Virus record (IMG/VR): IMGVR_UViG_3300036859_000158
Coordinates: 1 to 37,755 of that record
Source: a virus
Length of the DNA: 37,755 nt
Reading direction: 5' to 3' (one strand)
The stretch's first letter is position 1; each line of letters begins with the position of its first letter. The notes under the pieces are model-generated. The model searched no databases. It saw only the letters and a program-made list of their open reading frames with translations, and was not told the origin of the DNA. The position numbers were made by a program, and so were the translations under genes. Below are positions 8,722 through 35,161 of this stretch, piece by piece.

Positions 8722-8740
8722 ACGTCCTCCTTTGTCCACT

Positions 8741-8815
8741 CGTTATCCGTTAATCGTTAAACGTTCAACGTCCAGGATCTTCACGAATAACGAATAACGA
8801 TGAACGATGAACGTC
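8741..8815. repeat. AACG-stutter repeat (copy 1)
   Basis: This AT-richer spacer is made of near-tandem 7-8 base units such as CGTTAAT and CGAATAA and their complements, with the two halves partly inverted, so it can fold on itself. The same family occurs at 22657-22686 and 23954-23983. It fills the whole gap between the tail-tube gene and the ribosome-binding site of the chaperone gene. Confidence 0.7.
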
Positions 8816-8816
8816 C

Positions 8817-9299
8817 TTACGCGAACGTGCCGCGCGTGACGACGCCGGTCGCCTGCAGCTCGAAGCTGATGCCGGCCACATCGTCCAGCGGGCTATCCAC
8901 GGAGTAGCTCGTGACCCAGCACTCGACGCTGTACTTCACCTTGCCCGTGGTGCCGCCCTCCGGGCCGTACTCCAGACTCTTCGTGTTCGCGTTGTCCCCG
9001 ATGTCATCCGACAGGATCACATCGATGGCCGGGTCGAACCGCCCCTCGCCGGAGAAGGTCGCATCGCGCAGGCCCGGGATGTACGTCTTCTCGTTGAGGC
9101 CGAAGACCGTCGTCTCCGCCATCTCCCGCAGCCGCTCAAACGACGCGCTGTTGAGAAACGCCGTGATGTCGGTCAATGTGCCCGCGCCGTTGTCCAGCTT
9201 GACGACCGTGTTCTTGCCGTGGGTGAAGGCCCCGAGCAGCGGCACCAGCCACGGCAGCCAGAGCCACGCACTGTTCAACCAACTGAGTAGCCTCGTCAT
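8817..9299 (-). CDS. Tail tube protein paralogue with hydrophobic N-terminus
   Basis: The product has 160 residues. From residue about 24 on it aligns with the start of the neighbouring tail protein: H-G-K-N-T, a F-L-N-x-x-x-F-E-x-x-R-E segment, then G-L-R-D-A-T-F-S and the motif Y-S-V-D-S-P-L-D-D-V near its end. This marks it as a tail tube subunit of the same family. The first 23 residues are extra: L/W-rich and membrane-like. The ATG at 9299 has an AGGAGG site 4 bases upstream, so the extension appears genuinely translated. Confidence 0.75.
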   Translation of the reverse strand: MTRLLSWLNSAWLWLPWLVPLLGAFTHGKNTVVKLDNGAGTLTDITAFLNSASFERLREMAETTVFGLNEKTYIPGLRDATFSGEGRFDPAIDVILSDDIGDNANTKSLEYGPEGGTTGKVKYSVECWVTSYSVDSPLDDVAGISFELQATGVVTRGTFA

Positions 9300-10042: not shown

Positions 10043-10261
10043 TTATTTCTCCTTCCGCCGGCGAGAGGACTGAGGGCTGAGTGCTGAGGACTGAGCCTCA
10101 GTCCTCAGTCCTGAGTCCTCAGTACTATTCGCGAGGCCAGCGGCGCCCCACGCCTGGCCGACTGGATCCGGCACGTCATAGGTCTTGCCGGCCTCGAAGC
10201 GCTGGCGCGTCCGGCCGTCGTTCACGCTGTCCTCATGATCTGCGCGCATCGTCACCAGCAT
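10043..10261 (-). CDS. Small head-tail region protein with repeat-derived C-terminus
   Basis: The product has 72 residues. Residues 1-45 look like an ordinary small phage protein with a K-T-Y-D-V-P-D motif of the type seen in short proteins of the head-tail region. From about residue 46 the code runs into the CTGAG repeat at 10065-10125, so the tail reads as Ser/Gln/Leu-rich low-complexity sequence before stopping. The original stop was probably lost when the repeat arrived. Function unknown. Confidence 0.6.
   Translation of the reverse strand: MLVTMRADHEDSVNDGRTRQRFEAGKTYDVPDPVGQAWGAAGLANSTEDSGLRTEAQSSALSPQSSRRRKEK
10065..10125. repeat. CTGAGGACTGAG palindromic repeat (copy 1)
   Basis: Repeated units of GAGGACTGAG and GTGCTGAG are followed by their inverse complements (CTCAGTCCTCAGTCC), giving a long imperfect hairpin. 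Further copies are at 12190-12250 and 15490-15563. This copy lies inside the 3' end of the small head-tail gene on the minus strand. Confidence 0.8.
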
Positions 10262-10274
10262 CGTCTCCTCCTGG

Positions 10275-10302
10275 GTAGGGGCACGGCATGCCGTGCCCCT
10301 AC
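10275..10302. repeat. GTAGGGG palindrome (copy 1)
   Basis: This is a perfect 28-bp inverted repeat with ends GTAGGGGCACGGC and its complement. It lies in the 45-bp gap between two minus-strand genes. Related palindromes with the same GTAGGGGC ends but different centres are at 17128-17154 and 19499-19527. Palindromes of this form are common between genes in many GC-rich environmental bacteria. Confidence 0.8.
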
Positions 10303-11254: not shown

Positions 11255-11286
11255 CAGACCCTCGTCGCAAGCTGTCGTTGCGCCTG

Positions 11287-11378
11287 TGTCATTGCGAGGC
11301 CAAGCCGAAGCAATCTCGTCAGAGGTTGCCGCGTCGCGGACTCCTCGCAACGACAGCGAGGCTGCGCTCGCAATGACA
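11287..11378. repeat. TGTCATTGCGAGG repeat (copy 1)
   Basis: This is a 92-bp element bounded by TGTCATTGCGAGG and its inverse complement, with an inner GAAGCAATCTC and the inverse-type GTTGCCGCG part. Other copies are at 12003-12087 and 15237-15329. Elements with these ends are widespread intergenic repeats in unrelated bacteria. It fills the gap between the connector gene and the gp10-like gene. Confidence 0.8.
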
Positions 11379-12002: not shown

Positions 12003-12087
12003 TGTCATTGCGAGCGCAGCGAAGCAATCTCGACCGAGGTTGCCGCGTCGCGGACTCCTCGCAACGACACGCGCGCTCGCAATGACA
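12003..12087. repeat. TGTCATTGCGAG repeat (copy 2)
   Basis: This 85-bp element has the same TGTCATTGCGAG ends and the same core (GAAGCAATCTC and GTTGCCGCGTCGCGGACTCC) as the copy 700 bases to the left, in the same orientation. It lies between the connector gene and a small Lys-rich reading frame. Confidence 0.8.
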
Positions 12088-12181: not shown

Positions 12182-12189
12182 CCCTTCCA

Positions 12190-12250
12190 GTGCTGAGTGC
12201 TGAGGACTGAGTGCTGAGCCTCAGTCCTCATGCCTCAGTCCTCAGTCCTC
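12190..12250. repeat. CTGAGGACTGAG palindromic repeat (copy 2)
   Basis: Tandem GTGCTGAG and GAGGACTGAG units are followed by inverse CTCAGTCCTC units, giving an imperfect long hairpin. It ends right at the stop of the capsid-associated gene, between it and the Lys-rich reading frame. Confidence 0.8.
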
Positions 12251-14616: not shown

Positions 14617-16821
14617 TCAGGCGCGCACGACGGGCAGCGCCACGCAGCGGCAGTTGATCAGGTTCCCTGCCGCGCCGCTGGGATCATGCGGATAGCGCAG
14701 CCCATTACTGAACGGCTCGCCGCGACGCCTCGTCTCGCCGTCGATCGTGTGATCGTAGGGCGCCTCGCGCACGGCCTCATCGCGCGCCGAGAGCCACTCC
14801 GTCTCCTCGACGCCGAGCTGCTCCATCGCCTCGTCGCGGCCCTCGTTGTAGGCCCGCGCGGTCTCCGTGCGCGCGATCGTCTGGGCCTGTGGGCCGGACA
14901 GCCCCCGGTACACGTCGCGGATGCGCGAGGCGATCTGGCCCACCGACTCGGCGCCATCCGGCGCATTGAGCCCGGCGTCGATCGCGCGGGCGACCCGCTG
15001 GCGCGCGGTGGCCGCCATGGCCGCAAAGCGCCCGCGCTCAAGCTGCACGCGCAGGCGCTCCGCCGCGGTGCGGGCGTCCGCGCCGAAGGCGCCCGCGGCG
15101 CGCAGTTCCACCCAGACGCCCTCGCCCCCGCGCTGCTGGGCGCGCGTGAAATACGCGCGTGACACGTCCCGCAGGCGCCCGGCTTCTTCGTCCAGCTCAA
15201 AGAGGAGGTCCTCGGCGGCCTTCCTCGCGGAGGCCATGTCGTTGCGAGGAGTCGGCGACGCGGCAACCTCGGATGAGATTGCTTCAGCTGCGCCTCGCAA
15301 TGACACAGGCTCTGCGCCTCGCAATGACAACGAGCCGGCCGGCTGTGCGGCGAGATAGGCCTCCAGGCGGCGGAGCACGAGGTCCTGCTGCTGGCGATAC
15401 CACCGGGCCACCGCGCGCGCGTACTCGCGCTCCAACGAGAGCGTCTGTCGCACGAAGCCCTTCCAGAGGCGATCCCTTGCCGGGTCAGGGCTGAGGACTG
15501 AGTGCTGAGGACTGAGGGCATCTGCCTTTCGCTCAGTCCTCAGTCCTCGTTGCTCAGCACTCTCATCGGCCGGCAGCTCGCCGAAGGCGGGCCCGGTCTC
15601 CTCCCCCAGGGCGCCCAGCGGCAGCAGATTGAAGGGCACCAGCAGCACGTCGCCGTCGGCCACTTCGTCATAGCCGGTCGCGACGCGCTTCTCGTTGATC
15701 GTGAGCCAGGCGGCGTCCCCCACGCGGCTCCAGACTTTTTCGCGGTCCTCCTGCAGCGCCTCGATGGCGTCCCGGTCGTACTCCAGGCGCCGCCGGCCGC
15801 TGTCATCGAAGAGCGGCACGAGCCAGGCGTTCAGCTCGTCGCGGAACGCGTCGGCGAGCGGCAGCACCGTCTCGGTGTAGAACGCGCGCTTCGCCTCGCG
15901 GCGGTTTTCGTAGGTGGCCTCCTTCAGTCCGATCAATTCGGCCGGCGTGCCGTACAGCGTCGCAATGTCCTGCTTGCTCATGCGGCGCGAGTTGATCCAG
16001 TCCAGGTCCTTGGGGTTGATCCCCATCTCCTCCCAGGTCATCCCGCCTTCGAGCAGCAGGGGCAGCCCCGCGCGCTCGGCCCCGGCATACTCCTCGGTCA
16101 TCTGGGCCTTGAGGCGATCGAACTGCGGCTCGCTGAGGTTCTTTGCCACCACGAGCGCGCCGGATGGGCGCATGCCGTTCTTGATGAGGCTGAAGTTCCA
16201 CCGCTGTGCGGCGTTGTCCGTGTCCACGACGGTCGCAGCCACCTGGATCGGGGAGAGGCCGTACCAGTCGTTCGTCGGCGCGAAGAGCGTCATGTGGTGC
16301 ACGAGCGGCGCCGGGAGCCGCACCTCCACGCCGCCGGCCCGGTAGCGATAGGCGCTCACGCCCGCCGCCGCGTCGGGGATCACCTCCATGCGGTCCGGCC
16401 GCAGCGTCCACAGCTCGCGCGGCGGCTGCATCAGCGCGGCCGCGCCGGCGCCGGGGCCCACCCGCTCGATATAGGCGTTGCCGCTGATCATGAGATAGCC
16501 CGTCCAGCTCTGCGCGAACCGGCTGTAGCCCTGGAGCGGATTGGGCCGCGCCAGGAGCGCGCGCATCCGGCTGTCCTCCACCTCGCGGTCCCGGCCGCGC
16601 CGGCGATCGAACTCCAGCCACCGGAGCCCCCCCATGGCCTTGCCGATTTCATTGATGCAGGCATAGACGGTGACGTTCGCCTCATAGCCTTCCTTCGCCA
16701 GCCGCTCGTAATTGCGCGGCGTCGTGACGGGCTCCCCTGGCACGGTGAGCAGGACGACGGCCCGCGACGTCGCCGAGGCCTTGCGGCCAAGCCACCGACG
16801 CAGGCGATCGGTCCATTGCAT
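14617..16821 (-). CDS. Portal protein fused to MuF-like minor head domain
   Basis: The 734-residue product has three parts. Residues 1 to about 410 are an HK97-type portal: N-V-T-V-Y-A-C-I-N-E-I near residue 50, then I-S-G-N-A-Y, Y-G-L-S-P-I-Q and Y-G-T-P-A-E-L-I-G. Residues about 540-734 resemble the SPP1 gp7/Mu gpF head morphogenesis domain, with A-R-T-E-T-A-R-A-Y-N-E-G and a C-terminal N-C-R-C near 723-726. Between them, two repeat elements are read in frame: a CTGAG repeat at about 420-444 and a TGCGAGG repeat at about 498-528. Portals of this family are usually about 400-450 residues. The start overlaps the previous stop. Confidence 0.9.
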   Translation of the reverse strand: MQWTDRLRRWLGRKASATSRAVVLLTVPGEPVTTPRNYERLAKEGYEANVTVYACINEIGKAMGGLRWLEFDRRRGRDREVEDSRMRALLARPNPLQGYSRFAQSWTGYLMISGNAYIERVGPGAGAAALMQPPRELWTLRPDRMEVIPDAAAGVSAYRYRAGGVEVRLPAPLVHHMTLFAPTNDWYGLSPIQVAATVVDTDNAAQRWNFSLIKNGMRPSGALVVAKNLSEPQFDRLKAQMTEEYAGAERAGLPLLLEGGMTWEEMGINPKDLDWINSRRMSKQDIATLYGTPAELIGLKEATYENRREAKRAFYTETVLPLADAFRDELNAWLVPLFDDSGRRRLEYDRDAIEALQEDREKVWSRVGDAAWLTINEKRVATGYDEVADGDVLLVPFNLLPLGALGEETGPAFGELPADESAEQRGLRTERKADALSPQHSVLSPDPARDRLWKGFVRQTLSLEREYARAVARWYRQQQDLVLRRLEAYLAAQPAGSLSLRGAEPVSLRGAAEAISSEVAASPTPRNDMASARKAAEDLLFELDEEAGRLRDVSRAYFTRAQQRGGEGVWVELRAAGAFGADARTAAERLRVQLERGRFAAMAATARQRVARAIDAGLNAPDGAESVGQIASRIRDVYRGLSGPQAQTIARTETARAYNEGRDEAMEQLGVEETEWLSARDEAVREAPYDHTIDGETRRRGEPFSNGLRYPHDPSGAAGNLINCRCVALPVVRA
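15237..15329. repeat. TGTCRTTGCGAGG repeat inside portal gene (copy 3)
   Basis: This 93-bp copy of the TGTCATTGCGAGG family is inverted relative to the other two copies. It sits wholly inside the portal gene; 93 is a multiple of three and the frame stays open, encoding Ser/Arg/Ala-rich linker sequence that contains S-L-R-G-A twice and the motif E-V-A-A-S-P-T-P-R-N-D. Confidence 0.85.
15490..15563. repeat. CTGAGGACTGAG repeat inside portal gene (copy 3)
   Basis: The units GAGGACTGAG and GTGCTGAG followed by inverse CTCAGTCCTC units lie inside the portal gene, in the same linker as the other repeat. The frame is open through it and reads L-R-T-E, A-L-S-P-Q and V-L-S-P like fragments, which also occur in the repeat-derived tail of the protein at 10043-10261. 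Confidence 0.85.
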
Positions 16822-21571: not shown

Positions 21572-22383
21572 CAGTAACTCATCACCGCGAGCTGGTTGAG
21601 CTTCTGCGTGTGGTCCAGGGAGCGGCCCATCGCCGAGCGGATCGGGCGCATGCGAAAGCCTCGGAAGAGGTCCCGGATCGCCCGCGTGTCGGCGTTCGTC
21701 ATCAGGAACCTGCCACGGATCTTCCGAAGCCGATCGGCGAGCACCTGATGGTCGCGCTCGGAGAACGGCACGTCGTAGCCCGTGGCGCCCAGGTACGGCG
21801 GATCGAAATAGAAGAACGTGTCCGGACTGTCGTAGCGGGCGAGGCAGTCTTCCCAATCCAGGTTCTCGATGATCACGGTCTGGAGCCGCCGGTGGATCCT
21901 CTCGGCCATGGCGCGCACCGCCTCGATGCTCCGTGCGCTCGTGCCGCCGCTCGTCACGCCGGTGCCGAAGTGCTCGCCGGCGCCGCCGAAGCCGAGGGTC
22001 TGGCAGTAGAGAAACCGCGCGGCCTGCTGGATCTCGGTGAGGCCCGGCTGCAGCTTGTAGGAGTCGAACAGCCGGCGGCTCTTGAGGAGCGTGCGCAGCT
22101 CGTGATCGAACGGCTCGTGATGATATTTGATGACAGCGAAGAGGCTGAACAGCCGCGCGTCCCGGTCGTTGTAGACTTCTGTTTCGCTGGCCGGCTTGTT
22201 CAAGAGCACAGAGGCCATGCCGCCGAACGGCTCGACGTAGCAGCGGTGCGGCGGAAAGAGCGGCAGCAGTGTGTGGATCAGGCGCGCCTTACCGCCCTGC
22301 CACGGCGCCAGCGTCAGCTTGCGATCACAGCGCGACTGAACAGCCGGTCGCCGGCGGGATCCGCTCTTCGTGGTCTTTGTCAT
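21571..22383 (-). CDS. DNA adenine methyltransferase, D12 class (Dam-like)
   Basis: The product has 270 residues. SAM-binding and catalytic motifs are visible: L-A-P-W-Q-G-G-K near 25-32, E-P-F-G-G at 51-55, and D-P-P-Y at 194-197 in F-Y-F-D-P-P-Y. The order fits the alpha-type D12 (Dam/DpnM) N6-adenine enzymes. Phage copies usually modify phage DNA against host restriction. Here the gene sits in the late operon between lysis and terminase genes and overlaps both neighbours by TGATG, so it would act on DNA about to be packaged. The target site cannot be read from the sequence. Confidence 0.9.
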   Translation of the reverse strand: MTKTTKSGSRRRPAVQSRCDRKLTLAPWQGGKARLIHTLLPLFPPHRCYVEPFGGMASVLLNKPASETEVYNDRDARLFSLFAVIKYHHEPFDHELRTLLKSRRLFDSYKLQPGLTEIQQAARFLYCQTLGFGGAGEHFGTGVTSGGTSARSIEAVRAMAERIHRRLQTVIIENLDWEDCLARYDSPDTFFYFDPPYLGATGYDVPFSERDHQVLADRLRKIRGRFLMTNADTRAIRDLFRGFRMRPIRSAMGRSLDHTQKLNQLAVMSY

Positions 22384-22643
22384 CACGACAGGTCCGGCAT
22401 CTTCTCGCCCAGGTCTTCGCACAGCGCGCGGATCTCGGCGCAGAGTTTCGCGTGCTTCTCTCGGGCGTCCACCAGGTCGTTCACGAGTACCGTCAGCTTG
22501 CGCAGGTCCAGCTCCTCGATCGGCTGGTGCTGCGAGGTCAGGCGGTTGATGTCCTCGCGCAGGTTGTGGATGCGGATCGCGAGCGTGGCCGCCTCGTTCT
22601 TCTTCAACTCCAGAAGCCCCTTGTTCTCCAGCCGCATGCTCAT
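22383..22643 (-). CDS. Coiled-coil small protein, unknown
   Basis: The 86-residue product is almost entirely helical, with heptad-like spacing of Leu and Ile from residue 5 to 75. Two starts six bases apart are possible (22643 and 22637); the first is preceded by GAGG at a spacing of 7. It overlaps the methyltransferase. No domain is recognised; it may be a regulator or a small structural helper of the terminase/methylase group. Confidence 0.6.
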   Translation of the reverse strand: MSMRLENKGLLELKKNEAATLAIRIHNLREDINRLTSQHQPIEELDLRKLTVLVNDLVDAREKHAKLCAEIRALCEDLGEKMPDLS

Positions 22644-22693
22644 GGAACAACCTCGCCGAATAACGAATAACGATTAACGTATAACGTCTTCAT
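22640..22693 (-). CDS. 17-residue coupled mini-ORF made from an AACG repeat
   Basis: The ATG at 22693 overlaps the previous gene's stop as ATGA, and the mini-ORF's own TGA overlaps the next gene's ATG, again as ATGA. The product starts M-K-T-L-Y-V-N-R-Y-S-L-F-G, which is almost the same as the first residues of the gene at 23990. The coding sequence is the stutter repeat at 22657-22686. It is a plausible translational bridge between two genes; a function for the peptide itself is doubtful. Confidence 0.45.
   Translation of the reverse strand: MKTLYVNRYSLFGEVVP
22657..22686. repeat. AACG-stutter repeat (copy 2)
   Basis: Units of CGAATAA and CGATTAA are repeated in near tandem. It forms the coding sequence of the 17-residue mini-ORF on the minus strand. 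The same family occurs at 8741-8815 and 23954-23983. Confidence 0.7.
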
Positions 22694-23109
22694 AGAAGCC
22701 TCTCTTGGCCGCGGTCGCGTTCCATCCGCTCCAGCTTCTCCACCAGCCGCGTCTGGATTTGCGTGTTCAGCAGGATCACCTTCTGGTTCTCGTCGGACAG
22801 ATTGCGGTACACCGCGTTGATGTCCTTAAACGCCTGCAGGTGGGCCGCCTGCATCTCGTCGTAGCGCTTCGTCACGCCTTCGAGTTTGTCCTGCCGGTAC
22901 AGGAGATAGGCCAGGATCGCGAAGCCCACCAGACAGAAGCCCACGCGCTCCGCCAGGTTGAGCCAGCGCTCCCAGGTATCCACCTCGTGCAAGGGCGGCA
23001 CGGCTTCGGGGGCGCCCTGCGCGAAGCCGGTCAGGACGAGCGAGAGCGACGCCAGGAACAGCACGAGCATGCCGAGCTGAATGAACCGACGCGAAAGGCG
23101 CAGGCTCAT
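22690..23109 (-). CDS. Two-membrane-segment protein with C-terminal coiled coil
   Basis: The ATG at 23109 overlaps the lipoprotein stop as ATGA, giving 139 residues. Hydrophobic segments lie at about 9-30 and 57-75, followed by a long helical tail rich in Gln, Glu and Arg. The topology suggests a lysis-related inner membrane protein (holin or spanin partner). No sequence family is recognised. Confidence 0.6.
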   Translation of the reverse strand: MSLRLSRRFIQLGMLVLFLASLSLVLTGFAQGAPEAVPPLHEVDTWERWLNLAERVGFCLVGFAILAYLLYRQDKLEGVTKRYDEMQAAHLQAFKDINAVYRNLSDENQKVILLNTQIQTRLVEKLERMERDRGQERLL

Positions 23110-23378
23110 GGATGGCCCCCCGCCTCGAGATGCCACTGCAGCACCGGCTTCTCCGCCTCCTCCTGCTCCTGCTCGCAGCGCTCCACCTGCAGGCGGAGCG
23201 TGCGCTCGAGTTCATAGCGCTCCAGCAGCCAGGTCTCCGTCACGGCGTAGCGCCCATCAGGCAGGTGAACGATCGTCCGGTCCGCGCTGATCACCTCCGG
23301 CGCCACCGGGCCGAAGTGGATCTGGCAGCCCGCCAACGCCAGCCCCAGCAGACCCGCCGCGAGGATCCAGATCCCCAC
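23106..23378 (-). CDS. Lipoprotein, outer-membrane spanin (Rz1-like) candidate
   Basis: The GTG at 23378 begins a 90-residue product with a hydrophobic leader ending L-A-L-A-G-C, a lipobox with the lipidated Cys near 17, followed by a helical Glu/Arg-rich region. Its 5' part overlaps the upstream membrane-protein gene by about 120 bases in another frame, the same arrangement as Rz/Rz1 in lambda-like phages. The length is similar to o-spanins. The start choice is uncertain because a longer open frame runs upstream to 23567. Confidence 0.6.
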   Translation of the reverse strand: MGIWILAAGLLGLALAGCQIHFGPVAPEVISADRTIVHLPDGRYAVTETWLLERYELERTLRLQVERCEQEQEEAEKPVLQWHLEAGGHP

Positions 23379-23589
23379 GCTTAACCGCCGCCTTGCGCTG
23401 CAGCTCGAAGAGCCGCGCGAGGGTGGGGCCGTCCTTAGCCCGGATCGCCTCGCCAGCGGCCTGCACGTCGTCGTCATAGGCCTCCTCCAGTGCCTTGCGC
23501 CGGCGCGCCGGCGCGTTGCTGAGCCACGCCTCGATGAGGGCCACCACGAGGGGCAAGAGCGCGCCAAGAATCGCGGCCGCGGCGGCCAT
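23257..23589 (-). CDS. Membrane-anchored protein, inner spanin-like candidate
   Basis: The product has 110 residues. An N-terminal transmembrane helix (about 3-23) is followed by a helical Arg/Glu/Ala-rich region to about 75, then a Gly/Pro-rich tail where the frame overlaps the lipoprotein gene. The start at 23589 is 4 bases after the holin-like stop. A single membrane anchor plus periplasmic coiled coil and overlap with a lipoprotein gene fit an i-spanin, though it is shorter than typical ones. Confidence 0.55.
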   Translation of the reverse strand: MAAAAAILGALLPLVVALIEAWLSNAPARRRKALEEAYDDDVQAAGEAIRAKDGPTLARLFELQRKAAVKRGDLDPRGGSAGAGVGGLPDPLRPGGAGGDQRGPDDRSPA

Positions 23590-23592
23590 GCC

Positions 23593-23754
23593 TCACGACG
23601 CGGCTTTCTCGATCTTGTGGCCGATCCCGATCAGGGCCAGGCCGCCCGTGATGAACCCGATGGCCACGTCCGGCCCATGCTGTTCCGCCAGCCAGCCGCC
23701 GACGCCCCACAGGATCGCGCCGGCCGCCGCCACCCATGTCTTCCATCCGCTCAT
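23593..23754 (-). CDS. Holin-like small membrane protein
   Basis: The 53-residue product has two hydrophobic segments (about 6-24, Gly/Ala/Trp rich, and about 30-47) separated by a short E-Q-H-G-P-D turn, ending in K-I-E-K-A-A-S. Two closely spaced helices and a charged tail fit a class II holin. It overlaps the previous gene as ATGA and lies just after the endolysin and a one-segment membrane protein. Role inferred. Confidence 0.6.
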   Translation of the reverse strand: MSGWKTWVAAAGAILWGVGGWLAEQHGPDVAIGFITGGLALIGIGHKIEKAAS

Positions 23755-23990
23755 GGTTGTCTCCTTTCTTCTTGCTCACAGAGCTTCGTTTCAAGCACCA
23801 ACCGCACCGGCTGCCCTCCGATGATCAAGCCCTGGTTGGCAAATAACCCGCGATAGTGCTCACAGGTCGCCTGGTCCGCGAAATCCCCCACGCGATGCCA
23901 CTCCGGGTCAGCGATCAGCAGCGCGCGGAAAAACCACACCGCGACCAGCGCGCCGAATAACGAAGAACGTTTAACGATTAACGTCTTCAT
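23751..23990 (-). CDS. Membrane-anchored small lysis-cassette protein
   Basis: The 79-residue product starts M-K-T-L-I-V-K-R-S-S-L-F-G and continues with a membrane helix to about residue 26, then a soluble part with one Cys pair. The start overlaps the endolysin stop as ATGA, and the stop overlaps the holin-like start in the same way. The first 13 codons come from the stutter repeat at 23954-23983. A role as a lysis regulator or signal-anchored factor is possible but unproven. Confidence 0.6.
   Translation of the reverse strand: MKTLIVKRSSLFGALVAVWFFRALLIADPEWHRVGDFADQATCEHYRGLFANQGLIIGGQPVRLVLETKLCEQEERRQP
23954..23983. repeat. AACG-stutter repeat (copy 3)
   Basis: This copy has the units CGAATAA, CGAAGAA and CGATTAA. 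On the minus strand it is the first coding sequence of the 79-residue protein, giving the same N-terminal motif as the mini-ORF at 22640-22693. Confidence 0.7.
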
Positions 23991-24523
23991 GCCGCCTCCG
24001 GCAGCGCGGGCTTCGGCCAGAACTGCCGCGGCAGCTCCAGATGCTCCATGTCCCGCATCTTCCAGTTCCCGCCCCAGACGAACCCGCAGCTCTTGGCGAT
24101 CTTCCCCACGTGCTCCCACGGGGTCTGATCGTCGGGCAGGATCCGGCGGCCCTTCTTCACGCGAAAATGCATGGCCACGCCCAGGCAGTGCGGCCCGGCG
24201 TAGGGAAGCGCGTTCGTGATGATCCGGCCCGGCGCGCGGTCCTCCGGCATGGCCTCTGCGCCGAATGTCTCCTGGATGGCGAGGCCCATCAGCGCGCGGG
24301 TGTTCTGGTCGGTCTCGCGGTGGTCCAGATCCGCCGCGATCTCGTCCACCGTGCGCCCGTGGCAGAAGTAGCGCGCCTGGACGATGTCCGGCCGGCGGAT
24401 CTCGGTGACAACAACGGTCAGGCCGGCCGACGTCAGGAACTCGTTCTTCGCGCACGCGTCGCGGAACTTCTCCAACGCCGCCATCATCGCCGGCGAGCCC
24501 TCGATCAACCGCGCACCCGCCAT
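23987..24523 (-). CDS. Endolysin, M15-type peptidase-like
   Basis: The ATG at 24523 follows GGGAGG. The product has 178 residues and no signal peptide, so release probably needs the holin-like proteins downstream. The pattern I-I-T-N-A-L-P, then H112-x-x-G-x-A, then G-F-V-W-G-G-N-W and D-x-E-H161 is that of M15 (VanY/L-Ala-D-Glu) endolysins. The usual S-x-H-x-x-G-x-A-x-D motif reads P-H-C-L-G-V-A-M-H here, so Ser and the Asp zinc ligand are replaced by Pro and His119. Activity therefore needs testing. Confidence 0.75.
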   Translation of the reverse strand: MAGARLIEGSPAMMAALEKFRDACAKNEFLTSAGLTVVVTEIRRPDIVQARYFCHGRTVDEIAADLDHRETDQNTRALMGLAIQETFGAEAMPEDRAPGRIITNALPYAGPHCLGVAMHFRVKKGRRILPDDQTPWEHVGKIAKSCGFVWGGNWKMRDMEHLELPRQFWPKPALPEAA

Positions 24524-24540
24524 CAGTGCCTCCCGCGCGC

Positions 24541-24588
24541 AATAAAAAGCCCGATTGAAGAGCCGTTTAAGGCCTCTTCAACCGGGCT
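24541..24588 (-). terminator. Strong rho-independent terminator at end of early/middle operon
   Basis: Read on the minus strand, a 15-bp stem (AGCCCGGTTGAAGAG and near-complement, one G-T pair) with an 11-base loop is followed by TTTTTATT. It lies directly between the early/middle operon and the endolysin ribosome-binding site, only about 20 bases from the endolysin start. The late operon must therefore start within those 20 bases or read through the hairpin. Confidence 0.85.
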
Positions 24589-24629
24589 CGGTGTTCCCGA
24601 CAACCAGGTCGTAAAACTATGTCAGAGCG

Positions 24630-24734
24630 TCAGCGCCGAACTTTCGTTGCCTTGCGTCCGGCGTTCCCCTTCGTCTGTAAACCCATCCTCCTCATGACTT
24701 TATTCGCCATCTTCTTCTTTTGCCGCTTGTTCAT
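24630..24734 (-). CDS. 34-residue Lys/Arg-rich peptide, possible
   Basis: The frame from the ATG at 24734 encodes 34 residues, about half of them Lys or Arg (M-N-K-R-Q-K-K-K start), ending K-V-R-R. The ribosome-binding site is weak (GGAA). It is the last reading frame before the terminator. A basic peptide here could bind nucleic acid and affect termination, but it may be untranslated. The surrounding bases from 24590 to 24760 show no other gene. Confidence 0.35.
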   Translation of the reverse strand: MNKRQKKKMANKVMRRMGLQTKGNAGRKATKVRR

Positions 24735-24760
24735 CGTTTATTCCGGCGGCCCGGAGGCAA

Positions 24761-24952
24761 TCATGGGGTGTCCTTCACGCGAGAGCCGGTGGTCGTCCGG
24801 CAGACCGAATGCTTCTTGACGACCCCCTCCTTGTCGGCTGGGTAGGTCGCCTCATCGCAGACGATCTGAGAAGACACCGGCGGGATCTCCGGCATCGGCA
24901 CACACGCGCCAAACAGCAAGCAGAAAGAGAAAGCCATGATGATTGATCTCAT
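24761..24952 (-). CDS. Small lipoprotein
   Basis: The ATG at 24952 overlaps the previous stop as ATGA. The 63-residue product has a leader with a hydrophobic core ending L-F-G-A-C, a lipobox with lipidated Cys near 16, followed by P-M-P-E-I-P-P and a short domain with two further Cys residues that may form a disulphide. It is the last clear gene of the early/middle operon. It may modify the cell envelope (for example superinfection immunity), which is inference. Confidence 0.6.
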   Translation of the reverse strand: MRSIIMAFSFCLLFGACVPMPEIPPVSSQIVCDEATYPADKEGVVKKHSVCRTTTGSRVKDTP

Positions 24953-25122
24953 TCGAGAGGATCTCCCGGCTTCAAGGGATGCTCGTTTCGCATATATGAG
25001 ATCTCGCCGGCCTGAAAGCCGAGTTGAATCGTACCGTAAAACCCCTTGGAACGCAAGGCTCGCAGCCACTTCAGGACCTCCTCAAACTCAAAGTGCGCCG
25101 GCGGCTTCCCCTGCTCGCTCAC
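24949..25122 (-). CDS. YezD-like small protein (DUF2292-type)
   Basis: The GTG at 25122 overlaps the previous stop as GTGA. The 57-residue product contains E-E-V-L-K-W-L-R-A-L, then G-T-I-Q-L-G-F-Q-A-G-E-I, which follows the helix-strand-strand plan of the small YezD/DUF2292 family (helix, then G-x-I/V-x-I-x-x-x-x-G-x-I). The function of that family is unknown. Confidence 0.55.
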   Translation of the reverse strand: MSEQGKPPAHFEFEEVLKWLRALRSKGFYGTIQLGFQAGEISYMRNEHPLKPGDPLE

Positions 25123-28871: not shown

Positions 28872-29062
28872 GCTGTCACCGCATCAGGGCACGGCCAGCC
28901 GCCCTTCCCCTTGCATATCTCACAGGGCCTCACGCCGTGCGCCTCCTCGGGATAGCGATGCGGGCAGCAGTCTTCGCCACAATCTCTCTCCACAAAACCG
29001 TCCTCGCAGTTGCCGCACGGATGCCACTCGCCGTCGATGCAATCTGGATTCTCACAGCTCAC
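28868..29062 (-). CDS. Cys-rich zinc-binding small protein (DnaJ-type motif)
   Basis: The 64-residue product has a GTG start with GTGA overlap. It holds ten Cys residues, with C-x-x-x-x-C, C-G-N-C, C-C-P-H and C-E-I-C-K-G-K-G-G-W-P-C spacing. The C-x-x-C-x-G-x-G repeat resembles the DnaJ central zinc domain and small phage proteins of that type. Probable structural zinc sites; function unknown. Confidence 0.6.
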   Translation of the reverse strand: MSCENPDCIDGEWHPCGNCEDGFVERDCGEDCCPHRYPEEAHGVRPCEICKGKGGWPCPDAVTA

Positions 29063-29469
29063 GCCTCGCGCTCCTCGGGCTCCTTGTACGCGAGCCCCAG
29101 CTCGCGGAGTGCCGCGCGCCCGGCCTTCGTCAGGATCGCGCCGAAGTACGGCATGCGCTCCGCTCCCGTACCCCTAAACATCATCGGCTTGGTGATGCTG
29201 ATCAGCTCCGGGGCTCGTCTCTCGACCTCGCGCAGATCGCGGGCGATGAACATGTCCCATACGTCGGCCCCGTTCTGGACATTCCGCATCGCCTCGAGGA
29301 GTCCCTTGCGCAATCTTGGCGGCCGCGCGAGGGGTGGAGGCTCACCTGGGGCGCATGAGGAGCGACGAACGCCCGCATGGGCGCGGCGCGCCGAGTCTTG
29401 CAGCGGACCACGAGCTGCACCCCGAGCAGCGGCTCTCCCTCCTCGCAGCTTCTTCACGTGCTGGCTCAT
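29059..29469 (-). CDS. Hypothetical protein sharing its C-terminus with the PolX-like protein
   Basis: The 136-residue product has an Arg/Ala/Pro-rich first third of poor quality and a helical second half (V-W-D-M-F-I-A-R-D-L-R-E-V-E-R). It ends R-E-L-G-L-A-Y-K-E-P-E-E-R-E-A, nearly identical to the end of the neighbouring nucleotidyltransferase, because a stretch of about 50 bases is duplicated (29059-29109 and 29466-29515). The real start may be downstream of the first ATG. Function unknown. Confidence 0.5.
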   Translation of the reverse strand: MSQHVKKLRGGRAAARGAARGPLQDSARRAHAGVRRSSCAPGEPPPLARPPRLRKGLLEAMRNVQNGADVWDMFIARDLREVERRAPELISITKPMMFRGTGAERMPYFGAILTKAGRAALRELGLAYKEPEEREA

Positions 29470-29515
29470 GCCTCGCGCTCCTCGGGCTCCTTGTAGGAGA
29501 GCCCCAGCTCGCGGA
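29059..29515. repeat. 50-bp direct repeat at the ends of two adjacent genes
   Basis: The stretches 29059-29109 and 29466-29515 are about 94% identical and 407 bases apart. Each encodes the last 15 residues of a gene plus its stop and the ATGA/GTGA coupling site, so the repeat transfers both a protein tail (R-E-L-G-L-x-Y-K-E-P-E-E-R-E) and a translation-coupling junction. The tail is native to the PolX-like protein. Confidence 0.8.
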
Positions 29516-32356: not shown

Positions 32357-33278
32357 ATTTGAGCGCCTTCTGTACGTGCTCGATCGTCATCTTGCCGCCT
32401 GACTTCGTGGCCAGGATGCCGGCGATCTGCAGGAAGTTGGACATGCGCCGCACGCTGGTGAGGAGCTGCGGGTCCTGGCGCAGGAGCCTCATGACGGGCT
32501 CGATGTCGCCCTCGCGGAGCACGGCGCGCAGGATCTGGACCAGGTCGGCCTCGATGATCGGCGGCAGCTCCCAGATGCGGCCGGAGACGCGCGAGGCGAG
32601 CTGCTCGAACTTCTCGGACGTGCCGGTCAGGTGGCGCTTCAGGTCGTTGATGCCGACCAGGAGCATGCCGACGCCGGTCTCGTCGTAGACGTGGCGGAGC
32701 GCGTCCAGCGCGGTGAAACAGAGCGTGTGGGCCTCGTCCACGATGATGCAGCGGCCGGAGCCTGTTAGGCGCGCCAGCACGCGCTTCATCAGCGCGTACT
32801 TGGTGCCGGTCTCATGGACGCGGATCGCCTCACAGAGCTTCTGCAGCACCGCGCGGTCGCCGATGTTCCAGGCCTTGATGAGGATGATGCTGCGGTCCTG
32901 GCTGACGATCTCCTGGATCGTGCGGCTCTTGCCCCAGCCGGAGCCCCCGATGAGCGCGGCGAGCTGGCCGAACTTGTGGCAGAAGCCGACGGCCTTCATG
33001 ACTTCCTTGGCCTGGCGCGTCTCGACGAACGGGAGCTTGAGCAGCGTGCCGTCGTCGCGCGCATCCTCGCGCTCGACGTAGGCCTTGAGCGCGGCGGCGA
33101 GGCCGGCGAGATCGCCCACGTCCTTGCGGTTGAGGAAGTTGCTGATCGTTGCGGGGGACATGCCGATGCCGCGCGCGATGTCGGCCTGGGAGAGCGGCTT
33201 GCCCTTGGCCTCACGCCGGGCGATGAGATGCTCCAGGCGCTCGCGGGTCAGCTCGATGTCGTGGGCATAGAGGCTCAT
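32346..33278 (-). CDS. MuB-like AAA+ target-DNA selection ATPase
   Basis: The ATG at 33278 overlaps the MuA stop as ATGA. The product has 310 residues. An N-terminal Xre-like HTH (about 28-55: L-S-Q-A-D-I-A-R-G-I-G-M) is followed by Walker A at 111-118 (G-G-S-G-W-G-K-S) and Walker B at 177-182 (C-I-I-V-D-E) and sensor-like G-I-N-D. This is the layout of MuB, which binds target DNA as ATP-dependent filaments and gives it to the MuA transpososome. It is translated directly after the transposase. Confidence 0.92.
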   Translation of the reverse strand: MSLYAHDIELTRERLEHLIARREAKGKPLSQADIARGIGMSPATISNFLNRKDVGDLAGLAAALKAYVEREDARDDGTLLKLPFVETRQAKEVMKAVGFCHKFGQLAALIGGSGWGKSRTIQEIVSQDRSIILIKAWNIGDRAVLQKLCEAIRVHETGTKYALMKRVLARLTGSGRCIIVDEAHTLCFTALDALRHVYDETGVGMLLVGINDLKRHLTGTSEKFEQLASRVSGRIWELPPIIEADLVQILRAVLREGDIEPVMRLLRQDPQLLTSVRRMSNFLQIAGILATKSGGKMTIEHVQKALKYAA

Positions 33279-35161
33279 GATTCCATCAGCTCCTTGTGGA
33301 TGGCGTCGCGCTCGGCGGCGCTGGTGTCGACGCCAGGCGCCGGCAGGGCTGAGATCGCCTCGGCGCGCGGCGGCGCGGACCGCTCGAAGCCGGTGATGGG
33401 CCGGTTGACCGTGCCGCCGGGCTCTGGCGCGATCTTCGGCTTCAGCGCATACACCTTGCCGGCCGGGCGCTGGTTCACGACCAGGCGGGCGGCCTGGTCC
33501 GGGTCCACGGCGATCGCGCGGTGCTGCGCGTAGTCGCGCAGGATCTGCCGGGACTTCTTGCGGCGCCGGCCGATCTCCTGCTGCTCCTGCTCGGACAGGC
33601 CCATCGAGAAGGCCTTGTCGGCCTTGGCCTCGCAGAGCAGCGCGTTGTTCTTGAAGACGCGCAGCGCGCCGATGTTGCCCGCGTCGTAGCGGATCTCGAC
33701 CTTTTGGTCGAAGTGTGGGATCAGGGCGTCGTGCCAGTACTTGAAGCCGAACAAGTGGATGCCGTCCCGGTAGACCTTCACCGGCTTGTGCTTCATGAGG
33801 ATGCAGTCCAGCGCGGCGGCGTCCGGAATGCGCTTCTCGACGCCCTGCCACAGCGAGCGCGGCGTCGCGCCGTCCATGCCCTCGCCGTGGTGCTCGCGGT
33901 CGTGGTAGGCCTCGATGCACTCGGCCACGCGCTGGCGGCATTCATCCAGAGACATGATCAGGCCGTTCTTGACCTCGGCGTTGAGCTTCTCGGGCCGCTC
34001 CTTGTTGTCGCGTCCGCACCAGCCGGGCAAGGTGCGCTCCCAGGCCGGCAGCGTGTGGCCGAACCAGGGCTCGATGGCCTTCGACCAGGGCGAGCGGACC
34101 TGCGCGTGCGTGACGGTGATGTTCAAGAGCGCGAGCACGGCGCGGCTGTCGGCATTCAGCGTAACGTCGCGGCTGTACTTGGTCTTCCCGCCCCAGTAGG
34201 TGCAGGTGTAGTCCTTGCCGTTGTCCATATAGAGGCGCTTGGGGAGGCCGAAGCGGAGGATGCCGGCGCGCAGCGCGAGCGCGATCGTGTGGGCGTTGGG
34301 GACCCAGTCCAGGTGCCAGCCGACGACCGTGCGGGAGCGCAGGTCCATCCATGCGGTCAGCCACGGCCGGAACGTCTTCCCGCCGTCCGTGACGAAGAGG
34401 TCCAACACGCGGTGGTCGCCGACCCACATTTCGCCGACGGCCAGATCCAGATAGTCGCGGTGGATCTTCGGCTCGGCCTGCGCGCGGTAGGCCTGCTCGC
34501 CGTGGCGGCGCTCGAGGACGACGGCCTGGGGAATCGTCGCGAGGTAGCGGTTGATCGTGGCGACGCAGGGCGCCGGGATGCGCGCCTTCTCGCAGAACTT
34601 CTCGACGTTGCGATGGACGGTCGTGATGGAGGGGCAGGAGGGGCGCAGGTACTCGTCCTCGATGACGCTCTTCAGCGCGTCGGAGATCGCGTAGAACTGG
34701 CCGGCCTTCTTGCCCCAGCCGGGCAGCAGGCCCGCGAAGCCGGCCTCCCGGTACTTGTCCACCCAGCCATAGAGGGTGCTGCGGCCTTCGCCGTGCTGCG
34801 CGGCGAGCGCTTTGAGCCGGGTGGAGACGGCGTCGCGCGATTCCATGATGGCGAGGGCGTCCAGCACAATCGGCAGGCGGCGGAGCGCTTCGTGGCGCGC
34901 GCGCTCCGGGTATTCGGCCAGGTTCGGCGAAGCAGAATCTGCAGCCGGCGGCTGCAATTCGCGCTGCCAGTAAGTGAGCTGCGCGGCGTCCGGGAGCGAG
35001 AGCAGGCGGAAGAGCTTGACGTGCCGGCCGTTGGCGGCCTTCTCGTCGGAGGCCTTCACGGCGAACAGGCCGTCGTCGATCTTCCGATAGATGGTCGCGC
35101 GGTCGAAGCCGGTGAGCTCGATGGCCTGCTCGATCGTGACGTAGGGATCGCGCTCGATCAT
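33275..35161 (-). CDS. MuA-like DDE transposase
   Basis: The product has 628 residues. N-terminal HTH domains (R-A-T-I-Y-R-K-I near 21-28 and a helical region at about 90-145) bind the phage ends. The RNase H-fold core carries Asp249 (M-W-V-G-D), Asp313 (Y-M-D-N-G-K-D) and Glu364 (K-A-I-E-P-W-F-G), which match MuA D269, D336 and E392. The C-terminal part (about 450-628) is a beta-barrel and tail region like that of MuA, which meets MuB and ClpX. It performs integration and replicative transposition. Confidence 0.95.
   Translation of the reverse strand: MIERDPYVTIEQAIELTGFDRATIYRKIDDGLFAVKASDEKAANGRHVKLFRLLSLPDAAQLTYWQRELQPPAADSASPNLAEYPERARHEALRRLPIVLDALAIMESRDAVSTRLKALAAQHGEGRSTLYGWVDKYREAGFAGLLPGWGKKAGQFYAISDALKSVIEDEYLRPSCPSITTVHRNVEKFCEKARIPAPCVATINRYLATIPQAVVLERRHGEQAYRAQAEPKIHRDYLDLAVGEMWVGDHRVLDLFVTDGGKTFRPWLTAWMDLRSRTVVGWHLDWVPNAHTIALALRAGILRFGLPKRLYMDNGKDYTCTYWGGKTKYSRDVTLNADSRAVLALLNITVTHAQVRSPWSKAIEPWFGHTLPAWERTLPGWCGRDNKERPEKLNAEVKNGLIMSLDECRQRVAECIEAYHDREHHGEGMDGATPRSLWQGVEKRIPDAAALDCILMKHKPVKVYRDGIHLFGFKYWHDALIPHFDQKVEIRYDAGNIGALRVFKNNALLCEAKADKAFSMGLSEQEQQEIGRRRKKSRQILRDYAQHRAIAVDPDQAARLVVNQRPAGKVYALKPKIAPEPGGTVNRPITGFERSAPPRAEAISALPAPGVDTSAAERDAIHKELMES

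Follow-up and report, generated by a model that had tools for sequence, protein, structure and literature searches.

Two gene junctions in the late operon of a Mu-like phage raise the question of whether a short repeat can act as a portable start site for genes. The window that we analysed, i.e. the whole stretch of DNA, is a 37,755-base IMG/VR virus record of Mu-like genome type, with genes for a MuA-type transposase, a MuB-type ATPase, a terminase, a portal with a MuF-type domain fused to it, and major head and tail proteins. Nearly all the phage genes are carried on the minus strand. In the late operon the M15 endolysin is followed, in order, by a 79-aa membrane protein, several small genes, a 148-aa membrane protein, an 86-aa helical protein and a D12 DNA methyltransferase. 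A search of 22000-25000 for sigma-70-type promoter-like sites gave none. At two of these junctions the initial annotation had noticed a stuttering AACG repeat that begins with an ATG overlapping the upstream stop codon, and proposed that the repeat brings a start site and a translational bridge, by which genes might gain a new N-terminus. The features needed to follow the argument are:

33275..35161, minus strand, MuA-type transposase, by which the phage was placed (PF09299, PF00665; phrog_310, E 1.5e-96)
23987..24523, minus strand, M15-family endolysin, D-alanyl-D-alanine carboxypeptidase-like (PF13539, E 4e-8; phrog_6523 endolysin, E 2.6e-7)
23751..23990, minus strand, 79-aa membrane protein, MKTLIVKRSSLFGALVAVWFFRALLIADPEW..., residues 2-13 encoded by an array
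23954..23983, minus strand, heptamer array copy 3, CGTTAATCGTTAAACGTTCTTCGTTATTCG, with ATGAAGA directly before it
22690..23136, minus strand, 148-aa ORF, membrane protein, with a listed GTG start and the ATG of MSLRL at 23109; its stop overlaps the start of the mini-ORF
22640..22693, minus strand, 17-codon mini-ORF, MKTLYVNRYSLFGEVVP and a stop codon, formed by an array, with ATGA at each end; not present in four relatives
22657..22686, minus strand, heptamer array copy 2, CGTTATACGTTAATCGTTATTCGTTATTCG, with ATGAAGA directly before it
22383..22643, minus strand, 86-aa helical protein, native start at 22643, matched by the N-termini of its homologues
8741..8770, plus strand, left arm of a convergent pair (copy 1), CGTTATCCGTTAATCGTTAAACGTTCAACG
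8784..8813, minus strand, right arm of the same pair, which on the minus strand begins straight after the TAA of 8817-9299

The arrangement itself was found as described. On the minus strand both sites have the form ATGA: the stop codon of the 148-aa gene (TGA, 22692-22690) overlaps the ATG at 22693, and that of the endolysin gene (TGA, 23989-23987) overlaps the ATG at 23990. The sequence reads ATGAAGACGTTATACGTTAATCGTTATTCGTTATTCGGCG at the former site and ATGAAGACGTTAATCGTTAAACGTTCTTCGTTATTCGGCG at the latter. The near identity of the first 13 residues is also borne out, as 10 of the 13 are shared between the mini-ORF and the 79-aa ORF, which begins MKTLIVKRSSLFGALV.... The TGA of the mini-ORF (22642-22640) in turn overlaps the ATG at 22643 of the 86-aa gene, which is the further ATGA that had been reported, and the repeat at 23990, read as it stands, encodes the N-terminus of a membrane protein.

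The phage was placed by its transposase. A search of Nitrospirota for MuA gave relatives at 57% identity (the prophage in genome G228) and 41%, and one at 48% was added on searching the order of the best genome; all three come from one Nitrospirota order, to which Nitrospira sp. RCB (L128/G006) and Nitrospirae NS_1 (L046/G005) also belong. This order, which includes Nitrospira, is most likely the host lineage as judged from the transposase matches. Methylomirabilota was tried as the host lineage and rejected, as it gave only remote MuA matches (best 33%). A pattern search of the viral contigs for relatives of the M15 endolysin gave 0 matches.

The repeat is an array with a period of 7 nt, (CGTTANN)4CG, which on the other strand appears as AACG every 7 nt. 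Arrays of the latter form with at most one mismatch gave 6 matches in the window against 0 in 100 of 100 shuffles, and are therefore not due to chance. The convergent pair at 8741-8813 supplies no gene start codon. Copies 2 and 3 are alike over 47 nt at 85%, both edges included, as would be seen if one element had been duplicated inside the phage and the common peptide came from recent shared descent. Yet arrays on chromosomes of the host lineage are nearer to each of them: copy 2 differs at 2 of 30 positions from L227 and L260, and copy 3 at 2 of 30 from L212, L223 and L231, as opposed to 4 of 30 between the two copies. Also, the window copies match the host-array consensus at both edges, and the edges that they share (AGA before, CGG after) are common among the host arrays. 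Since each copy is closer to host arrays than to the other copy, the two look like independent arrivals, neither a duplicate of the other, and we regard duplication within the phage as very unlikely.

On scanning one genome per species, heptamer CGTT arrays were seen in many phyla among the matches listed. Within the Nitrospirota order, four-unit arrays of the same build are present in 85 of the 236 genomes, and a group of the array-bearing genomes has the units of the window (AAT, AAA, ATT, ATA and AAC between the CGTT cores). We inspected 100 arrays at 54 loci in six genomes; the reversed pattern, used as control, gave 0 in these except for 2 in G416. A host array typically has an edge that is often AGA, GGA, TGA or CCT, then (CGTTANN)4CG with about four units, and then usually G or T, and two arrays frequently face each other as a convergent pair, their arms 5-35 nt apart. 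The base after CGTT is A in 53-56 of the 58 elements and the next two vary, CGTT being fixed by the search design. Using a simple ORF caller in the six genomes, we found 56 of the 58 elements to be intergenic, and 26 of the 47 adjoining gene 3′ ends to lie within 11 nt of an array or slightly inside it. For six genes the stop is supplied by CGTTAA, and the gene extends 6 nt into the array. Gene 3′ and 5′ ends are adjoined alike, in both orientations. Neighbouring units have the same sequence less frequently than expected (0.064 against 0.148, sd 0.026; L209-L262), which argues against simple slippage as the sole source. It may be noted that L214 4013-4101 and L224 1267-1348 are the same locus in two genomes with one arm differing by exactly one 7-nt unit, and that at other loci (L213 and L235) the flanks are kept with the unit order different or the array absent. 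The stutter of the window is thus a member of a chromosomal (CGTTANN)4CG heptamer-array family of this order. Our leading guess is that the arrays are a tolerated, fast-turning-over intergenic repeat and not a coding module, and that a protein may bind at their constant CGTTA core.

If the repeat carried both a start codon and the stop/start overlap, and so gave genes a new N-terminus, the junction at 22693 would be expected to owe its overlap to the array. The 148-aa and 86-aa proteins have homologues in the IMG/VR phages G001 and L169 and in prophages of G228 and G274. In the window, 46 nt flanked by ATGA on either side separate the stop of the 148-aa gene from the start codon of the 86-aa gene, whereas in 4 of the 4 relatives, which differ from the window by about half of their residues and give no near-identical pair for comparison, the junction is free of the array and the upstream stop directly overlaps the downstream start. 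This overlap is 4 nt in G001 (GCGCATGAGCG) and 11 nt in L169, G228 and G274 (ATGGCAAGTGA or ATGGGAAGTGA). No AACG arrays were found in the L009 and L010 records. The direct overlap in the array-free relatives, together with the matching start of the 86-aa protein, indicates that the overlap came first and the array was added. We infer that the array was put into an existing stop/start overlap at 22693 and did not bring the start, contrary to what had been proposed from the window by itself. Purine-rich stretches precede all three ATGs (22693, 23990 and 22643) as read from the sequence, and the candidate ribosome-binding sites of the two array starts would belong to the upstream genes and not to the repeat: GAGAGG inside the upstream gene for 22693, and GGAGG 4 nt upstream of the ATG, within the endolysin gene, for 23990. 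For 22643 the candidate is GCGAGG, just beyond the array.

The host lineage bears on the same question. Both window copies begin ATGAAGACGTT in the same translated frame, one of them is in frame with the 79-aa gene, and L289 in a genome of the host order has the same arrangement, all of which would suit a portable start module. But among the 236 genomes only five arrays are phased to an ATGA as in the window, with ORFs of 8, 8, 8, 10 and 36 codons, and none of these forms the N-terminus of a gene. Also, ATGAA precedes GACGTT in 0 of the 169 multi-phylum pattern matches, among the matches listed. Host arrays that follow a TGA are read as the similar peptides MTLIVNRYSLIG, MTLIVNRYSLNG and LKTLIVNRYTLIG, which soon stop and open no genes; as these are nearly the same peptide, M-K-T-L-x-V-x-R-x-S-L-F-G represents the consensus of the family in a single frame. 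On the sequence comparisons, the shared protein start is best taken as the repeat read through in one frame and not as a unit that supplies starts. The start-module reading is not supported at 22693, the one informative site, and we consider it most improbable overall.

At 23990 the repeat does provide, as read, N-terminal coding sequence. This much of the proposal is supported, in contrast to the bringing of a start, which finds no support at 22693; the N-terminus may have been gained by way of the array. Two lysines and one arginine precede the hydrophobic segment of the 79-aa protein, giving it an N-terminus like that of a membrane anchor. No convincing homologue was found in the viral contigs, the phage records, the 236 genomes of the order or PHROGs, and the strongest of the weak genome matches, among those inspected, are other frames of other genes. 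Repeat-derived ORF extension, as by RU and Rickettsia palindromic elements, would place a repeat in frame inside an ORF whose homologues are without it; for the 79-aa ORF, which reads the array in frame, neither a homologue nor an array-free junction was found in these sets. Either the ATG already was the start of a gene, into which the array was then inserted in frame, or a new frame arose from the array together with the sequence next to it; the order of events was presumably the same as at 22693.

We also asked if array insertions are kept only when the mini-ORF restores the coupling of both genes, so that the bridge would be a selected one. At about position 1501 of L289 (minus strand), a chromosomal sequence of the host order, a 500-codon ORF ends in ATGA, followed by a 36-codon array ORF (MRTLTVQRYTLPARRK...) and a 354-codon ORF with a GTGA start. 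This double arrangement, like that of the window, was found independently, and the near-identical bridge leaves room for a selected function. Counting strictly, we obtained 3 bridges (the window site, L224 and L289) in 16 co-directional junctions against 0.79 expected by gap shuffles, although 2 of the 3 had been included for their look. In the window gap alone a mini-ORF bridge arises in about half (48%) of the shuffles, i.e. an expectation of about 0.48 at this one site. Because of this ascertainment and shuffle rate the bridge count is not taken as evidence for selection, and the translational bridge that had been ascribed to the repeat finds no support beyond chance. Most insertions at co-directional genes are also without a bridge. 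A selected bridge is therefore unlikely, though we allow it a small chance.

A further possibility is that the arrays act at gene ends as RNA hairpins or terminators, their coding being incidental. Convergent pairs are indeed frequent at gene 3′ ends, and the 8735-8825 pair gives a better fold than its shuffled versions do (z -2.6). The arrays at 22693 and 23990, however, are single arms, with folding no better than that of their shuffles (z -0.63 and -0.17), and over 19 pairs the two arms show less complementarity at their variable bases than shuffled pairs do (2.79 against 3.78, sd 0.29). No Rfam families matched. The folding of the single arrays and the low complementarity of the arms argue against selection for an RNA stem. 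The hairpin or terminator reading of the two single arrays is disfavoured on both counts, and we hold it to be quite unlikely.

Taken as a whole, we have good confidence in the account that arrays of host type were inserted behind pre-existing stop/start overlaps and are read through by the frame. Members of the array family occupy short gaps at gene ends, singly or as convergent pairs, and two single arrays would have entered the late operon independently, at junctions where stop and start already overlapped. At 22693 the insertion would have left an ATGA on each side, the second of which may be a target duplication, so that a 17-codon ORF came to bridge two genes by accident; at 23990 the array would have landed in frame behind the ATG and become the 12 residues after Met of the 79-aa membrane protein. 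The common peptide follows because both arrays conform to the consensus of the family and begin 3 nt behind an ATGA. The identity of the arrays, their distribution in the host lineage and the array-free junctions of the four relatives (22693 site) were observed directly, whereas the insertion, its manner, the translation and a like order of events at 23990 are inferred. It is plausible that this phage draws coding sequence from repeats. A bolder version, which we rate as unlikely but worth stating, is that the host arrays are raw material: the in-frame array would give a new membrane protein of the lysis region its charged start, other repeats would serve as the portal-MuF linker, and junction arrays would be kept when they leave a bridging ORF. 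The finding as such extends the reach of a chromosomal heptamer family, common in Nitrospirota, into a phage, operon junctions and coding sequence, and the regular build (four units, CGTTANN, adjacent units differing beyond chance) makes both spread and function testable. Also, it cautions that two proteins can share an N-terminus solely because one repeat landed twice behind start codons.

The nearest known kind is the bacterial heptameric intergenic array, here with a new unit, in a new host phylum and in a phage; no description of a CGTTANN array family in Nitrospirota was found among the papers searched. The (GGGANTN)n heptameric G-rich arrays of Xanthomonas (Rehm et al. 2015, PMC4692102) mostly have four units, are about 90% intergenic and are dispersed on the chromosome. 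Our arrays resemble these in the 7-nt period, in the constant core with variable positions, in lying near the end of the upstream ORF, often as two convergent arrays, and in being dispersed and mainly intergenic, but the core is CGTTA as opposed to GGGA and the carriers are Nitrospirota chromosomes and a phage. Unlike the G-quadruplex repeats of Xanthomonas and Nostoc, the CGTTANN/AACG unit has no G-tract and no quadruplex potential. The TAACTGA direct repeats of Beggiatoaceae, Cyanobacteria and Bacteroidetes (MacGregor 2015, PMC4679880) are likewise short heptamer arrays in many intergenic gaps, some overlapping stop codons, and a few are read inside ORFs, at protein ends. However, the TAACTGA unit is invariant and mostly in one orientation towards the start codon, whereas CGTTANN varies at two positions, its pairs are convergent and its arrays hug stops and starts alike. 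Geobacter metallireducens has heptanucleotide elements of four and five units, proposed as regulator sites (PMC2700814), which are similar in being few tandem heptanucleotides, with one class paired on opposite strands, but are built of GGACCGG and MTYCTGA. The enterobacterial RU-1/RU-2 are small mobile sequences fused to ORFs (PMC2759123); in these too an intergenic repeat has become part of a reading frame, where it sometimes provides a predicted membrane or signal segment, but they are MITE-like and 100-170 bp long, as opposed to the heptamer arrays of the window. Precedents thus exist for repeats read into ORF ends (PMC2759123, PMC4679880).

Other repeats were seen in the window and its relatives. 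The portal-MuF fusion protein (14617-16821, minus strand) reads in frame through two of them, 15487-15561 and 15237-15310, residues 421-445 being a CTCAG-type heptamer array and residues 504-529 a ATTGCGAGG element; both encode linker residues of the portal and fall in a poorly conserved, gapped stretch of its alignment with the G274 portal. The former belongs to a second heptamer family, GACTGAG/CTCAGTC, present as facing inverted arrays at window positions 10066-10126, 12189-12250 and 15487-15561, the core pattern of which occurs in 110 of the 236 genomes of the Nitrospirota order. The latter is one of three copies, 92-96% alike, of a TGTCGTTGCGAGGAGTC...GCAATCTC element (11282-11355, 12020-12069 and 15237-15310), two of which are at or between gene ends and one within the portal gene. 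A GTAG-headed palindrome, GTAGGGGCACGG..CCGTGCCCCTAC, lies at window 10275-10302, and a close version is present between or beside the heptamer arrays in chromosomes of the host lineage (L209, L215, L219, L222 and L242); it resembles REP sequences. A 52-nt direct repeat (29057-29108 and 29464-29515, 94% identity, 407 nt apart) is found at the ends of two adjacent ORFs. In the G274 prophage a CAGG tetranucleotide run stands immediately 5′ of an ATG of the D12 DNA methyltransferase gene (L176, about 16365), and slippage of this tract could be an on/off switch for the gene. Finally, in the G228 prophage an AACGTGA/AACGTCA heptamer-like array (L174 15778-15830), the only four-unit AACG array found in the G228 genome, encodes, as read, the C-terminal end of a prophage protein (...NGETKDVNDAKGETSNVKRQTGDEGTDAER and a stop codon).
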